DNA from: Haloarcula vallismortis ATCC 29715
GTDB lineage: Archaea; Halobacteriota; Halobacteria; Halobacteriales; Haloarculaceae
Reading direction: 5' to 3'
Assembly: GCF_000337775.1 (NCBI RefSeq)
Contig: NZ_AOLQ01000059.1
Location: 62,001-126,000 of the forward strand
DNA: 64,000 nucleotides
Part shown: positions 14,440-22,391 of the stretch, one piece after another
Position numbering within the stretch: position 1 is the first letter of the stretch
Layout of the letters: each line of letters begins with the position of its first letter
The notes under the pieces: model-generated
Seen by the model: the letters and a program-made list of their open reading frames with translations, nothing else
Databases searched by the model: none
Told to the model about the DNA's origin: nothing
Made by a program: the position numbers and the translations under genes

Positions 14440-15795
14440 TTAGTCCCCGTAGCCTCCGAGCTCGCACTCGGCGGCCGGGCCACTGTCGCAGTCGTATCCG
14501 ACCGCCTTCGTGACACTGAGGAGGTCATAGAACCGACCGAGCGACTGCTCGGACTCAGAGAGCCCTTCGACCACTGGCACGCCACGCTGGGCCTGATGAT
14601 CACAGCTCCGCATCGTCTGGCTGCCCAGCCCGACCGAGTACTCGTGGTCTTCCAGTTCTCGGATAACCGCTGGCGGGTAGAAGGTACCGGCCCGTTCTGC
14701 GGCCGCGGCGAACTGGAGCGTCTGTGCGTACGCCAGATGGGCCACGCCGGAGGGGCGCTGTGCGTTCCCGTATTCGGCGGTGAAGGCGTTCTTGAACTCG
14801 TCGGAGAGATCCGAGGAGATGCTGGTGTCCCACGCCACTGTCCCGACGACGCCGTCGAGTGCCTTCGAGGCGTTCTGTGCCACGATGCGGTTGTACAGCG
14901 GCACCACAATCCCCACCTCGTCCGGGAGGATTTCCTGAGCCGTTGTCAGCGAGTTCGCGGCGTCGAGTCCGTAGTGGTCGAGGAAGACGACCTCCGCACC
15001 GGCGTCCCGGGCCTGCTTGAGCGGTTCCTCGTAGTCTGTCGTCCCGAGACGCGTCGGGATGCTCGTGAGTTCGACCCAGCCACTCGACGTGAAGAAATCG
15101 CGAATCGACGACTCCATCGTCTTGCCCCAGTTGTAGTCCGCGTAGATCTGGACGTACTGGGCATTTCGGCCGAACCGTTCCTTGAGGACCGGCATCAGCG
15201 CCTGTGCGGTCATGTACGCGTTGAACATCTCCCGGAAGCTGTAGCGGACACAGTCTCTCCCTGTCGTGTCGTTCGAGTGAGTCAGACAGCACATATACGG
15301 GACTTTCTGGGCCTGTGCGACCTCCTGCTGAGCGATGGCGACGGAACTGGACGAGCCGCCGGAGAACATGACGACATCGTCTTGCTTGACCATCTCCTCG
15401 GCGTTGGCCGTCGCGACATCCGGTTTCGTCTCCGTGTCCCCAGTGACGTACTCGACGGTCTTTCCGAGCACGCCGTCGCCGCTGAGTACGTCGAAGGAGC
15501 GCTGGCCGACCCAGCCGCCGCCCTCGTTGAGGTGCGTGACCGCGAGCTCATACCCCCGGAGTTCGTCGCGCCCTTCGGCGGCATAGGTCCCGGACTGTGG
15601 GACGTTGAAGCCGAACGTGACCGCGTCGCCGTCGACAGGATAGTTCCCGAGCGGTGGATGCTCTGGTGTGTTTTCGGCTCTCGATCCCCCGCCCTGGTAC
15701 CCCGCCAGCCCGGCGAGTCCCGCTGTCCCGACCCCACCGGCAATCTGTAGTAGCGACCGCCTGTCAACCGCTGCGCCCCCTTTTTCCAATCGCAT
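14440..15795 (-). CDS. ABC-type substrate-binding protein (LivK/UrtA-like), no transporter genes adjacent
   Basis: A 451-residue periplasmic binding protein of the type I (branched-chain amino acid / amide / urea) fold. It has a Tat-like N-terminus, DRRSLLQIAGGVG, then a domain starting VTFGFNVPQSGTYAAEGRDELRGYELAV. The lipobox position reads LAGLAGY: the codon is TAC (Tyr) where haloarchaeal lipoproteins normally have TGC (Cys). It may therefore be secreted or kept by another anchor. No permease or ATPase gene is nearby; instead cheC lies next to it. Haloarchaea use orphan binding proteins (BasB, CosB) with chemotaxis transducers, so a sensory role is possible. The ligand is unknown. Confidence 0.85.
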   Translation of the reverse strand: MRLEKGGAAVDRRSLLQIAGGVGTAGLAGLAGYQGGGSRAENTPEHPPLGNYPVDGDAVTFGFNVPQSGTYAAEGRDELRGYELAVTHLNEGGGWVGQRSFDVLSGDGVLGKTVEYVTGDTETKPDVATANAEEMVKQDDVVMFSGGSSSSVAIAQQEVAQAQKVPYMCCLTHSNDTTGRDCVRYSFREMFNAYMTAQALMPVLKERFGRNAQYVQIYADYNWGKTMESSIRDFFTSSGWVELTSIPTRLGTTDYEEPLKQARDAGAEVVFLDHYGLDAANSLTTAQEILPDEVGIVVPLYNRIVAQNASKALDGVVGTVAWDTSISSDLSDEFKNAFTAEYGNAQRPSGVAHLAYAQTLQFAAAAERAGTFYPPAVIRELEDHEYSVGLGSQTMRSCDHQAQRGVPVVEGLSESEQSLGRFYDLLSVTKAVGYDCDSGPAAECELGGYGD

Positions 15796-15966
15796 ACCAG
15801 TTGTTTTGATAATAAATATATATAATACTTATTTCAGTAGAAAAGGGTGATCAAGTAGTACAGACAGTGCTGGCCTCAGGTAGTGACGGCTGCTGGTCGT
15901 ATTCCCGGCGGTTACAGTAACGACGGAGGCGCGATGAAACGAGATCGCAGAAACAGCGTGCCGATA

Positions 15967-16611
15967 TCAGTCAAGAATGTCGCTGGCTTCGGTGTCTACC
16001 GCTACGTCGGTGTCGAGGTCGATATCCTGAATCAACGCGACGAGGTCTTCCAGTTCGGGGAACGTGTACACGGTCATCCCGAGGTCGCCGTCGTCAACAG
16101 TGATACGCGAGTCGACGACGAACACCAGATCTGAGTCCGGCCAGCCACCCATTTCGTCGATGATGCCGTCGGCCGGCCCGAACACGAAGTTCGGCGTCCC
16201 CATGTCGATGGTCGTCTCCAGCACGTTGGCCCACCCGTCGATGAACGCGGAGGTCATGATGTTGCCGATTTCCTGCATCGCCGACCGTTCCATGTCGGAG
16301 AACCCCTCGCCCTCGCTTGGCTCACCCATTCCACCCATCATTGCGCTGGCCATCTGCTTGCTGTCGGCCGGTTCGAGCAGAAACAGGACGTAGCCGTAGG
16401 GCGGTTCGTTCAGTTCGACGTAGATGCCGACGCCCTTGTCGTCGCCGATGTGTGTTTTGACGTCTGCAATGTCGAGAAAATTGATCTGTGAGGTCCGAAC
16501 TGTCGCGTCGAGTCCGGTCAACTGACCGAGGTTCTCCGCGACCGTCCCGGACCCCTCCTTTGCCATCTGATTGAAAAGGTCCAGCTTCCGCACGTCGACT
16601 TTCAAGCCCAT
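15967..16611 (-). CDS. cheC: chemotaxis protein CheC
   Basis: CheY-P phosphatase / adaptation protein of archaeal and Bacillus-type chemotaxis, 214 residues. The second phosphatase motif is intact (S-A-M-Q-E-I-G-N, the S/D-x3-E-x2-N pattern, about residues 110-117). In the first half the equivalent segment FNQMAKEGSG has lost the Glu and Asn, so only one active site is expected. It stands apart from any che/arl operon here, between the binding-protein gene and the nitrogen regulatory genes. An extra start upstream is unlikely; ATG 16611 gives MGLKVDVRKLDLFNQM. Confidence 0.87.
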   Translation of the reverse strand: MGLKVDVRKLDLFNQMAKEGSGTVAENLGQLTGLDATVRTSQINFLDIADVKTHIGDDKGVGIYVELNEPPYGYVLFLLEPADSKQMASAMMGGMGEPSEGEGFSDMERSAMQEIGNIMTSAFIDGWANVLETTIDMGTPNFVFGPADGIIDEMGGWPDSDLVFVVDSRITVDDGDLGMTVYTFPELEDLVALIQDIDLDTDVAVDTEASDILD

Positions 16612-17280: not shown

Positions 17281-17646
17281 TCAGACTGCCTCTGGGCCTT
17301 CTTTACCGGTTCGGACCTGGTAGGCGTTGTCCACAGGGAGGACGAATATCTTGCCGTCACCTTTCTCACCGGTGTGGGCACCGTCGGCAATAGCGTCGAC
17401 GACATCCTCTGCGGGGATGTCTGCGACCACTGTCTCGACTTTGACCTTCTGGTGCAGGTCGACGACGTACTCCTCGCCGCGCCACTGCCCTTTCTTCGCG
17501 GGCTGTGAGCCGCGGCCGGAGACGTTCGTCACTGTCAGCGAGGGCGCGCCGACCTCCGCGAGCGCCTTCTTCACGTCGCCGAGTTTGTCCGGTCGAACCA
17601 TTGCGACTACCATCTTGATTTCGGAGTCGTCGGTTTCGTCAGTCAT
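17281..17646 (-). CDS. glnK: PII nitrogen regulatory protein
   Basis: Trimeric PII signal protein of 121 residues that binds 2-oxoglutarate and ATP/ADP and gates the Amt channel. Key features are the [20 protein letters not shown]-terminus, the T-loop [19 protein letters not shown] (about 53-71) and the C-terminal [18 protein letters not shown] signature. At the position of the classical uridylylation Tyr51 the sequence has Trp (KGQWRGEEY versus TELYRGAEY in enterics); the nearby Tyr remains. The start overlaps the amt stop by eight bases, so the two are translationally coupled. Confidence 0.95.
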
Positions 17647-18967
17647 CTTTGGAACCTCCGTCAGTACGCATGCTCGGGCTCACTTTACCACCATCGGCGA
17701 CAACACTCTCGCCGCCACCGAACTCGGGGTAGGTCTCGACGCCGTGCTCGCTGACGTCCAGCCCCTCCTGCTCGTGTTCGGGCGTGACTCGGGCCTGCCC
17801 GGCTGCCTTGAGGGCGTACCAGACAACCCCGGTTGCGACAATCGTCCAGCCCGCGATGGCCACGACGCCGATCAGCTGTGCGATGAAGGCGTTGACGACT
17901 GACCCGACCGTGCCGGACGTGGCGACGAACGGGAACAGCAGCGTGCCGAGCACGCCGGCGCTTCCGTGGACCGGGAAGACGGCACAGACGTCGTCGATTT
18001 TCATCCGGTTCTCGATGAAGCTGAAGACGACCGGTAGCTGTCCGCCTGCGAGGCCGCCAACGACGATTGCGCCCCACCACGTCGTGGTGTCGGGAATCGC
18101 CGTGATGCCGACCAGCCCGGCGAGCAGTCCGTTCGCCACGTACAGGGTGTCAACCTTGCCGGTCTTCAGCCACGCGACCAGTCCGGCACCCATCGCACCA
18201 CAGGCCATCGCAATGGTCGTGGTCATCGCGACACGGCCGACCGTTGCGAATGCTCCGAGAGCCAGCGATCCGTCCTCGACGACGAAGACGGTCGCCGCCG
18301 TCCCGACGTTGAAGCCGTACCAGCCGAACGCGAGGATGAGCGTTCCCAGCACGGCGAAGGTCAGCGAGTGGCCCGGGATGACGTTTGCGGAGCCGTCCTC
18401 GTTGTACCGGCCCATGCGTGGACCGAGAACGTACGCCGCCGTGAGGCCCGCGATGCCGCCCATGCCGTGTACGATCATTCCGCCAGCGAAGTCGTGGAAG
18501 GCCTCGCCGCCGAAGCTAATGTACGCGCCGGCCCACGTGATTCCGGTGACGACGGGGTAGATGACCGCCGCCAGCAGGAAGGTGTACGTGATGTACGCGC
18601 GGAGCTTGGCTCGTCCGGCGACAGCACCGGAAACGATGGTCGCTGCCGTCATCGCGAAGACGGCACCGAATAACCAGCCGACGTAGTCGTTTGCGGCCCC
18701 GGCGCCGAAGGCCGGCGAGAACCCGCTGCCGCCGACTAGGGCACTGATCCCTGAGCCGATCAGGAAGAACACCGTTACGCCGACCGACCAGGTCAGGAGG
18801 TTCTTCGTCAACTGGTTCGCGACGTTCTTCGAGCGCACCTGGCCCGCCTCAAGCATGGCGAAGCCCGCGTGCATGAAGAAGATCAGGAACGATACTGTAA
18901 GGACCCACAGAAGATTGACACCTTCTGCGAGTACGCTCGGGTCGACCTGTAGTGCAGTGTAGCTCAT
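17639..18967 (-). CDS. amt: ammonium transporter
   Basis: Amt/Mep/Rh family channel of 442 residues with about 11 membrane helices. The family motif [13 protein letters not shown] contains the first pore histidine; a second is in VFPVHGSAG. The start [31 protein letters not shown] gives a periplasmic N-terminus and a first helix. It takes up ammonium under nitrogen limitation, and the co-encoded GlnK would block it when nitrogen is sufficient. First gene of amt-glnK-lrp, divergent from the transducer-KaiC gene across a 464-base region. Confidence 0.96.
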
Positions 18968-19431
18968 TTCTAGTTCACCTGTTTCGTTTTGTTATCGACT
19001 GCCGTCTGCATGTCCAACTTTCCCCCATTCTGGCTCAACTTCTTCAACTCTTTCACGAGAAAGGCTCTGGTAACACCACTACATAAGGTTTGCCTTTATG
19101 AACACGGAAATTAGAGGGGATGTGGTAGACGACCGTCCAAATTATGGTATGATATTATGGATATAAGGTTGTTCTCCGTAAAGAAAGTCCGTATATGTAT
19201 ACTGGAATTTTGGACGTTTGTCGACCCCAGTTCCGCCCGCAGGGGGCCAAATAGGCCGTTTTTGCTTGCGCGCGCTCTCGGCTGGCGGGTGTTGCCAGCG
19301 CCAACAGGGTTATACTTCGCGGCCACAGATTCGAATCCAGTATAAATGTCCGGAAAACAGTGGGGAGACGTGGCACAATGTCTCGATAAACTGTACAAAT
19401 CGAACATGTATTGGAGGGTTCGCAGCTGATT
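18968..19431. promoter_or_regulatory. divergent promoter region between amt and the transducer fusion gene
   Basis: 464 bases without a gene. An imperfect dyad CATAAGG-TTTG-CCTTTATG lies at 19082-19100, about 115-133 bases upstream of amt. Direct repeats ATTATGG occur at 19141-19147 and 19154-19160, one helical turn plus apart. A TATAAAT box at 19341-19347 precedes the fusion gene, which also has GGAGGG at 19412-19417. A GGCC-aaata-GGCC plus T5 stretch at about 19244-19261 resembles a terminator. The regulatory roles are inferred. Confidence 0.45.
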
Positions 19432-21042
19432 ATGGCTTCGGACCACTACCCCTCCGTTCCGGACCAGTCATCGGCTGTGACAGAGGAACGGGCAGTCGCG
19501 AATGCACAGGGGGCACTGGATGTCGTTCAGGCGGCGTCGATGACTGTCGGCGAGCAGCTCGCGGCGATTGATGACCGTGCAACAGCACAGGCGACCGACG
19601 CACAGCAGATTGCCGACAATGTCTCGTCGCTTTCCGCCACAATCGAGGAGATCGCCGCGACCGCGACCGAGGTCAGCGAGCAGAGCCAGCGGGCGACGGA
19701 CGCAGCGAACGACGGTCGAGAGGCCGCGGCCGATGCCATCGAGTCGATGGACGAGGTCCGCGAACTGGGCCAGGCGGTCGCTGCCGAGGTGGCCGCCCTG
19801 CAGGACCGGGTCGACAGTATCGCCGACGCGCTGGCCGGCATCGACCGCATCGCCGACCAGACAAATATGCTCGCGCTGAACGCATCAATCGAGGCCGCGC
19901 GAGCGGGCGATACCACCGATACGGACGGGTTCGCTGTTGTTGCAGATGAAATCAAGGCGCTCGCTGAGGAGTCCCAGCAGCAGGCTGAAGAAATCGATAC
20001 GACGCTGACGGCGGTTCGAGACGCCACAGGGGATACCGTCGAACAGCTCGATGCGGCCATCGACGGCATCGACACCGGGGCCGAGCAGGTCACCACGGCG
20101 ATGGCACGGCTCGACGACGTGGCCGACACCGTTGCGGAAACGGCCGACGGCATTGCATCTGTCTCGGCGGCGACCGACGAGCAGGCGACGACGAGCGAAG
20201 CGGTTGCCCAGCGGTGTGAAACGGTGTCGGACCGCGCCGCTGCCATCGAAGACGACCTTTCCGAGATACGAGCCGCTCGCGCCGAGCAGACTGCTATGCT
20301 GGACGAGATCGACGACGTGCTCGCTGCCGCCGAGGCCGACCGGCAGAACCGACTGGCGGACGCGCCGACAGTTTCGACCGGCATCGACGGCCTCGACGAC
20401 CTCTGTGGCGGCGGGCTTGTCATGGGCGGTCAGGCCGTGGTCCGGTACGCCGATGGGACGCAGGTCGACGGTGTCGTTTCACAACTGTGTGCCACGGCTG
20501 TTGCTGCCGGCCGGGCGGTTTCGCTGACACCGCCGCCGTCGCTGGACCGGTCGACGCTGGCCGCTGCGTTCGCGGCGACCGACCACTCGCTCGAAGACGC
20601 GCTCGACGACGATGCCCTGTTCATCCTCGACCCGTTCGGGCACTGGGACGCCCGGTACAACGTGTTCGACCTGGAACGGACCTCGCTCGCTGCCGCCAAC
20701 GAGACGACGGCCACCAGACGGGACGCCCCGCTGGTTATCGTCGGGAACATTCAGGGAGAAATACAGCTGATGGGCGAACAGGCGGCCAGAGAAGCCCGGT
20801 ACGAGAACGACGATGGCGTCTTCGAACCCCACGACACAGTGGTCAACGTCATCGACGACAATGCGGTCCCGGAAACGCTCGGGGCCTTTTACTCCGGCGC
20901 TGCCGATCAGGAACTCACGCTGACACGGACTGACGGCCACGAGCACTTGACGCTCACCGCCTCGCCGCGTGGCACTGTGGGAGCGAAACAACCGGTATCA
21001 CAGCTGTCGAGTCCACCTTTCCTCCGACTCAGAGACAACTGA
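19432..21042 (+). CDS. soluble chemotaxis transducer fused to P-loop-less KaiC-like domain
   Basis: 536 residues with no membrane segment and no recognisable sensor domain. Residues 1-300 are an MCP signalling coiled coil: the hairpin tip IADQTNMLALNASIEAARAG at 140-159 and GFAVVADEIKALAEES at 166-181. Residues 310-536 resemble a RecA/KaiC-family domain: it opens STGIDGLDDLCGGGLVMGG like KaiC/GvpD proteins and has a Walker-B-like DDALFILDPFG near 394-404. At the Walker A position it reads VRYADGTQVDG, with no GK[TS]. It would couple to CheA/CheW through the tip. The stop overlaps the start of the next kinase gene (TGATG). An alternative TTG start at 19411 adds seven residues. Confidence 0.8.
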   Translation: MASDHYPSVPDQSSAVTEERAVANAQGALDVVQAASMTVGEQLAAIDDRATAQATDAQQIADNVSSLSATIEEIAATATEVSEQSQRATDAANDGREAAADAIESMDEVRELGQAVAAEVAALQDRVDSIADALAGIDRIADQTNMLALNASIEAARAGDTTDTDGFAVVADEIKALAEESQQQAEEIDTTLTAVRDATGDTVEQLDAAIDGIDTGAEQVTTAMARLDDVADTVAETADGIASVSAATDEQATTSEAVAQRCETVSDRAAAIEDDLSEIRAARAEQTAMLDEIDDVLAAAEADRQNRLADAPTVSTGIDGLDDLCGGGLVMGGQAVVRYADGTQVDGVVSQLCATAVAAGRAVSLTPPPSLDRSTLAAAFAATDHSLEDALDDDALFILDPFGHWDARYNVFDLERTSLAAANETTATRRDAPLVIVGNIQGEIQLMGEQAAREARYENDDGVFEPHDTVVNVIDDNAVPETLGAFYSGAADQELTLTRTDGHEHLTLTASPRGTVGAKQPVSQLSSPPFLRLRDN

Positions 21043-22391
21043 TGTTCGGTATCGACGACACCGGTCGGTTCACGTTTGCGACGGCTGAGTTCGCTGCACT
21101 GCTCGACCGAACACCCGCCGAACTTGTCGGCACGCCCGTCGACGCGCTGGTCGTGGCCGAGGACAGAGAGACACTGACTGACGCCAGACAGGCCGTCAGC
21201 AACGCGTCGGGCCGGGTGACGCGGACCTGCCAGGTCACACTCCGCCAGAGCGTCCGCTCTCGTTCGGTTACGGTCGAACTTACGACCGCAGACGACGGGT
21301 CCGTGGTCGGCTCGCTCTGTCAGACGGCCGAGGCAGCCGACCCGTTTCAGTACCTGTTCGACCTCATTCAGGATGCGGTCGTCGGCTTCGAAATCGTCAA
21401 CTTCGTCCCGATTGTGCGGACGGTCAACCCTGCGTTCGTCGAGACCTTCGGGTACGACTGCGAGGAGATCGTCGGCGAACCACTCAACGACTACATCGTC
21501 CCTGGCGACCGCGTCGAGGAGGCGGTCAACTACGACCAGCGGACGGCCGCCGGGGAAGTCAACTACGCCGTCGTCTCTCGAAAGACGGCTGACGGCTGCC
21601 GCGAGTTCATCTACCGCGGCGTTCCGTACGACACGGCCGACGGCCGTCGCTGTGGGTTCGCAATGTACACGGACGTGACGGATAGCCGGCGGCAAAAGCG
21701 GCGGCTTCGTGTTCTCCACCGCGTCCTGCGGCACAATCTCCGGAACGAGCTTTCGGTCGTGTTCGGGACGGCGGAATACGTTCGTGCCAACGTAGCCGAC
21801 TCGTCGGTCTCGCTTGCCGCGTCCCGGGCCCTCGATGCGGCTGACCGCCTTGCCGCCGTCAGCGAAAAGGCCCGGAGCGTCGAAACTGCATTCGATGGGG
21901 ACGCTGACCAGTCGGTCGACGTGGCGGCACTGGCCCGGGCTGTCGCCGACAGCTACCGCCCCGACGCAGCGGTCGAAACGGCACTTCCGAGCACACTCCC
22001 TGTCACTGGTGGGACGGCCGTCTACGACGCCATCGACAACCTCGTCGAGAACGCAGTCGAACACACGCCGCCGGATACGGCCGTCCGAATCACAGCCGAA
22101 CAGGCTAACGGCGACGCGCTCGTCCGTGTCCTCGACGACGGCCCCGGTATTCCCGCTGTCGAGCGGGCCGTTGTGTTTGAGGACGCAGACATCACCAACC
22201 TCCAGCACGGCAGCGGCCTCGGTATCTGGCTTGCCCGGTGGGTCGCAGAGACAGCCGGCGGCGGCATCGAGTACGACCGAACCGACGGATGGACGACCGT
22301 CTCGCTTCGGTTCCCGCTGTCTGATGCCGATGCCGAGGACGTGCTTACGGTGGTCAATTCTCCGGAATCAGCGGCTGAGCCGACACGGTAG
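21042..22391 (+). CDS. PAS-domain sensor histidine kinase
   Basis: 449 residues, cytoplasmic. A short PAS-like segment sits at 1-95 (MFGIDDTGRFTFATAEFAALL) and a clearer PAS domain at about 100-215 (DLIQDAVVGFEIVNFVPIVRTVNPAF). The H-box is VLHRVLRHNLRNELSV with the phospho-accepting His near 227. A HATPase domain follows: N-box NLVENAVEHT, G1 VLDDGPGIP and G2 HGSGLGIWLARW. No receiver domain is fused. The ATG shares one base with the stop of the transducer-KaiC gene, so the two proteins are made in a coupled way and probably work together. The ligand and response regulator are unknown. Confidence 0.88.
   Translation: MFGIDDTGRFTFATAEFAALLDRTPAELVGTPVDALVVAEDRETLTDARQAVSNASGRVTRTCQVTLRQSVRSRSVTVELTTADDGSVVGSLCQTAEAADPFQYLFDLIQDAVVGFEIVNFVPIVRTVNPAFVETFGYDCEEIVGEPLNDYIVPGDRVEEAVNYDQRTAAGEVNYAVVSRKTADGCREFIYRGVPYDTADGRRCGFAMYTDVTDSRRQKRRLRVLHRVLRHNLRNELSVVFGTAEYVRANVADSSVSLAASRALDAADRLAAVSEKARSVETAFDGDADQSVDVAALARAVADSYRPDAAVETALPSTLPVTGGTAVYDAIDNLVENAVEHTPPDTAVRITAEQANGDALVRVLDDGPGIPAVERAVVFEDADITNLQHGSGLGIWLARWVAETAGGGIEYDRTDGWTTVSLRFPLSDADAEDVLTVVNSPESAAEPTR

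Follow-up and report, generated by a model that had tools for sequence, protein, structure and literature searches.

The window is a 64,000-nucleotide stretch of the Haloarcula vallismortis ATCC 29715 genome. It carries two overlapping genes on the forward strand, the first coding for an MCP signalling hairpin joined to a KaiC-related domain and the second for a soluble histidine kinase, beside a divergently oriented amt gene (Table 1). The initial annotation had read the first gene as a transducer-KaiC fusion and had named amt, glnK and lrp as neighbours. The neighbours were confirmed by domain matches. Both halves of the fusion were also borne out, the N-terminal part by its PF00015 match and the C-terminal part by homology to KaiC, as described below. 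As a whole, the fusion protein scores 121.1 bits against the MCPsignal model PF00015, above the curated cut-off of 34.6 bits. Because an identical two-domain architecture was read at 47 loci, the fusion is not a product of chance.

Table 1. Features of the fusion-kinase pair and its amt flank, in window coordinates.
Feature	Position	Strand	Basis or remark
Transducer-iKaiC fusion gene	19432..21042	+	536 aa; read at 47 loci
MCP signalling coiled-coil hairpin, residues 1-303	19432..20340	+	PF00015 E 5.7e-35, residues 83-266
Methylation-type motif SATIEEIAAT, residues 68-77	19633..19662	+	46/47 fusions
Hairpin tip IADQTNMLALNASIEAARAG, predicted CheA/CheW contact region	19849..19908	+
Inactivated KaiC-family domain (iKaiC), residues 304-536	20341..21039	+	phmmer, profiles, hhalign
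Lost Walker A position, RYADGTQV	20443..20466	+	alignments
Lost catalytic glutamates, position LTPPPSLD	20524..20547	+	alignments
Lost Walker B aspartate, APLVIVGNIQ	20725..20754	+	position inferred from KaiC alignment
Soluble PAS histidine kinase, partner gene	21042..22391	+	449 aa; HATPase_c 1.7e-17, PAS 7.1e-13
TGATG stop/start overlap, translational coupling	21040..21044	+	sequence
TATA-like box TATAAATG, 5' of fusion gene	19341..19348	+	sequence reading
amt, divergent neighbour, probably positional	17639..18967	-	PF00909 2.3e-95
Conserved 26-bp element upstream of amt, separate from pair	19161..19186	-	follows amt

The fusion was also said to lack a membrane anchor. No membrane span was detected in either protein by 19-residue hydropathy, with maxima of 1.31 for the fusion and 1.38 for the kinase as compared to 2.12 for Amt. 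The hairpin tip IADQTNMLALNASIEAARAG is kept in most of the 47 fusions, and a methylation-type motif is found on the N-terminal side in 46 of the 47 and another on the C-terminal side in 10. The TATA-like box TATAAATG aligns in close Haloarcula relatives only. In three fusions of family f3 (L118, L123 and L125) the tip is changed to NASIQAAQAG or NASIQAAKAG, so that the E and R that make trimer contacts in Tsr are gone; judging from these tips, signalling through CheA may be absent in this family. The fusion of genome G018 (L045:8950-10518) is split into two open reading frames by an in-frame stop, which reflects either a pseudogene or a sequencing error.

The kinase was said to start on the last base of the fusion's stop codon, and the fusion stop TGA (21040-21042) indeed overlaps the kinase start ATG (21042-21044). 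Its description as an intact PAS kinase likewise agrees with the matches to PAS and HATPase_c and with the motifs in the protein, which include RHNLRN at residue 230 (putative H-box at 21729), an N-box and the G-boxes DDGPGIP and GSGLGI. The Pfam HisKA model did not match the kinase, though RHNLRN stands at residue 230.

Homology and catalytic motifs of the C-terminal domain

The C-terminal domain of the fusion falls outside all Pfam families. Its score against PF06745 (10.6 bits) is below the Pfam gathering cut-off of 26.6 bits, and three members of the fusion-domain set match MEDS, at best with an E-value of 1.4e-4. Comparison of the single sequence with KaiC by phmmer gave an E-value of 6.4e-5. 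A profile built from 20 orthologues of the domain gave 5.7e-7, and a profile that included distant relatives gave 2.3e-15, with a match spanning both KaiC domains. By hhalign, the domain aligned with the second domain of two-domain KaiC-like proteins over 227 columns (E 4.5e-42), as compared to a probability of 0.1% for a control profile of the unrelated MCP part. The profile of the fusion domain matched the active first KaiC domain only weakly when the two were compared directly (probability 24%). The case for homology to KaiC is therefore made by the wider profile and by the link through the second domain, and not by the direct first-domain comparison.

In the aligned fusions, other residues occupy the positions of the Walker A motif, the two catalytic glutamates and the Walker B aspartate. 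Polar residues conserved in at least 95% of the 47 fusions are W405, N410, R430, N439, E443, E449 and R453, together with Y457, N459, D460, D468, Y487 and D492. Retention of near-invariant polar residues despite the loss of catalysis indicates that the domain is under selection. Since homology to KaiC is combined with lost catalytic motifs and conserved polar residues, we assign the C-terminal domain as an inactivated KaiC (iKaiC) domain, with a predicted RecA/KaiC fold that rests on this homology. This assignment accords with the original proposal of a KaiC/RecA-family domain that has lost its Walker A motif, as the Walker A site is occupied by RYADGTQV. An AlphaFold2 model of the domain, built with seven similar sequences, was poor (pLDDT 44.7).

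The distant relatives of the domain are two-domain proteins in which an intact KaiC domain (PF06745 down to 3.8e-46, Walker A GGPGTGKT) is followed by a second domain without a Walker A motif. The second domain of these haloarchaeal KaiC-like ATPases is homologous to that of the fusion over approximately 227 columns, and Walker A is absent in both; the two differ in that the domain lies behind an intact KaiC ATPase there and behind an MCP hairpin here. That the iKaiC domain is found in both of these contexts suggests an exchangeable input module, one that can be joined to more than one kind of output. Two-domain relatives also occur in genomes without CheW (G035, G047, G070 and G077). In the source genome, one two-domain KaiC-like gene (G000 C38, L200:1638-4532) is followed after 6 bp by a PAS histidine kinase and forms a second KaiC-kinase pair in this genome. 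A kinase partnership of the two-domain genes in general was considered and found unconvincing, with an adjacent kinase at only 3 of 19 loci.

Distribution, CheW and the partner kinase

A class-wide search across haloarchaeal genomes at a domain E-value below 1e-40 placed the fusion in 48 of 391 sampled genomes, which represent 15 of 84 genera and four families. A scan of viral contigs found no relative. Within a 116-genome family sample, CheW was present in all 26 genomes with the fusion as compared to 87 of 116 overall (hypergeometric probability 1.8e-4, a naive value in which kinship is ignored). All 25 further fusion genomes also encode CheW, for a total of 51 of 51 carriers checked, and the source genome has three CheW-domain matches. 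This co-occurrence fits a role in taxis and is in part a reflection of shared ancestry.

The 47 loci used as tree rows, each coding for the MCP-iKaiC protein, fall into clade I (n=31) and clade II (n=16). Linkage of the kinase was followed through these relatives. Of the 31 clade I fusions, 29 have a related kinase as neighbour. It mostly lies downstream in the same direction, overlapping by 1 or 4 bases; in genus g9 the two genes are convergent, and in genus g24 divergent. The genomes of the two exceptions (L054 and L130) have related kinases elsewhere. No adjacent kinase of the related kind was found in clade II (16 of the 47 rows). The kinase tree contains one operonic group and a sister group that adjoins the fusion in g9, g24 and g57, suggesting that related kinases probably became neighbours of the fusion more than once. 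In genus g40, which belongs to a family other than f1, the fusion and the kinase are both nested among f1 genes in their trees, as would be expected under transfer as a pair.

In genome G407 (L195:6478-8316), an in-frame internal deletion has cut a clade I transducer to a 98-aa stub that still overlaps an intact kinase gene at TGATG, indicating that the kinase can persist without the transducer. Conversely, the lack of a linked kinase in clade II indicates that the kinase is dispensable to the core of the system. The kinase is a favoured partner of clade I and lies outside this core.

Comparison with known signalling systems

A major role as signalling hubs in archaea has been proposed for KaiC-like proteins, whose links to other pathways are poorly known. 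Cytoplasmic transducers of haloarchaea include Car/HtrXI and HemAT, and some soluble MCPs of bacteria, such as TlpD-CZB, carry a sensor domain at the C-terminus. These proteins resemble the fusion in joining a soluble MCP hairpin to a cytoplasmic input domain, and TlpD provides a precedent for C-terminal placement of the input; however, the input domain of the haloarchaeal fusion belongs to the KaiC family, and the literature searched describes no chemoreceptor with a domain of this type. The KaiC-SasA system and archaeal KaiC-histidine kinase pairs also combine a KaiC-family protein with a histidine kinase, as does the L200 pair of the source genome. The pair described here differs from both in that its KaiC part is dead and contained within a transducer, and in that its kinase has PAS domains. 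No KaiB-like SasA domain was detected in the partner kinase.

The iKaiC domain has been described in archaeal signalling proteins, including MEDS, DUF835, HalOD1-iKaiC and iKaiC-REC (Galperin et al. 2018, PMC5847659, which cites Makarova et al. 2017 mBio). Like the fusion, these proteins join a KaiC-superfamily domain that has lost its ATPase motifs to signalling domains, but the response-regulator tables of PMC5847659 pair iKaiC with REC and HalOD1 and not with MCPsignal. The literature searched does not describe an MCP-iKaiC fusion; Makarova et al. 2017, which lay outside this search, might mention one. Cytoplasmic MCPs and iKaiC domains are each of a known kind, and it is the fusion of both that is new to the searched literature. 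The fusion adds an input-domain type that was missed by the family models used. By uniting a KaiC-family domain and a chemotaxis transducer in one conserved polypeptide across 15 genera, it makes a link from KaiC to taxis directly testable in genetically tractable haloarchaea.

Candidate signalling roles and gene neighbourhood

On the sequence evidence, we favour with moderate confidence a cytoplasmic chemotaxis transducer that has a dead iKaiC domain as its C-terminal input and is coupled with a soluble PAS histidine kinase. In the mechanism that we infer, including the direction of the signal, its coupling to CheA and the contact between kinase and transducer, the iKaiC domain, its ATPase lost, would recognise a cytoplasmic cue, which may be a small molecule, the partner kinase or a KaiC-family protein. 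The resulting conformational change would be passed along the MCP hairpin as far as the tip that binds CheA/CheW and would bias archaellum switching, with adaptation through methylation of the hairpin. The kinase would share this input or pass it on to gene control.

Other roles for the same proteins can be envisaged. The initial annotation suggested a transducer of nitrogen status. Under this reading, the fusion and the kinase would sense GlnK/Amt or ammonium and direct taxis or the expression of nas. Its appeal lies in the neighbourhood, as amt-glnK adjoins the fusion divergently in four genera (g1, g13, g14 and g18). In one g18 genome the gene order has changed and glnK is nearest to the pair, which is the single observation that speaks for a genuine link. 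In g1, the amt flank also contains nirA, a gene for a lone substrate-binding protein and a CheC-like gene. The association with amt and glnK held to the extent that they adjoin the fusion in these four genera, but it failed in seven others, where the pair occurs without amt (g2, g9, g20, g24, g28, g40 and g57, with the fusion alone in g28). In no clade II case does amt stand beside the fusion, and elsewhere the pair is found among unrelated genes such as those for MoaE/MobB, ADH, aconitase and metallo-beta-lactamase-fold proteins. In g1, g13 and g14, hemB flanks the pair on the side away from amt. Where the pair is missing, amt and hemB lie close together nonetheless, approximately 450 bp apart in G356, G357 and G408, so the pair probably lies within an amt-hemB neighbourhood that is older than itself. 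The conserved 26-bp element goes with amt and is also present in genomes lacking the fusion. The nitrogen reading as it was stated is not supported by these observations, and we consider a nitrogen-sensing role quite unlikely. Beyond the kinase and amt, no recurrent neighbours were found across genera.

The dead domain could instead bind an active KaiC-like protein, a type of partner that the initial annotation had also raised and for which the support is circumstantial, with the receptor array reading the state of that ATPase. In the two-domain relatives, the homologous domain belongs to the same polypeptide as an active KaiC domain, and the source genome has nine KaiC-family domain matches over the cut-off. 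A KaiC gene with an intact Walker A lies 110 bp from cheW, and the two are within 1 kb in 60 of 62 genomes tested; in Haloferax, the KaiC homologue CirA affects motility (PMC13286277). Docking partners could be, for example, the cheW-adjacent KaiC-like protein or ArlH. However, many genomes have the cheW-linked KaiC without the fusion, and G054 and G029 carry the fusion yet have no match to the cheW-linked KaiC at 1e-60. Docking of this kind seems unlikely to us, and we are equally doubtful that the array senses an active KaiC-family ATPase, such as the cheW-adjacent one, through its nucleotide or phosphorylation state. If it did, a KaiC-based signalling hub would directly steer archaeal swimming. 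In the remaining candidate role, which departs from taxis altogether, the MCP hairpin would form a dimeric signalling rod through which the coupled kinase and an output in gene expression are controlled. The close coupling and the repeated association with related kinases would suit such a scaffold, as would the altered tips of family f3 and the two-domain KaiC gene and PAS kinase that stand 6 bp apart in the source genome. This role is nevertheless difficult to reconcile with the tip and methylation motif kept in nearly all fusions, with CheW in every carrier, with a clade II that has no linked kinase and with the G407 kinase that persists after transducer loss, and we judge it very unlikely.

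The cheW-adjacent gene of the source genome (L196:17375-18638, G000 C7) codes for a KaiC-family ATPase with an intact Walker A motif and is located approximately 110 bp from cheW within the arl/che cluster; its product may be a CirA orthologue. The 26-bp block ATATAAGGTTGTTCTCCGTMAAGAAA upstream of amt (window 19161-19186) is conserved across genera. A promoter element shared between amt and the fusion was ruled out, as the block stays with amt, and it is possibly an amt-glnK operator or promoter. Genus g13 (L042, L043 and L044) has two tandem amt-glnK-lrp sets, and the closest match to the block is at the amt farther from the fusion rather than at the adjoining one. A Peripla_BP_6 gene and a CheC-like gene (window 14440-16611) adjoin lrp-glnK-amt, with no ABC permease seen beside them; the Peripla_BP_6 protein is possibly a binding protein for taxis.
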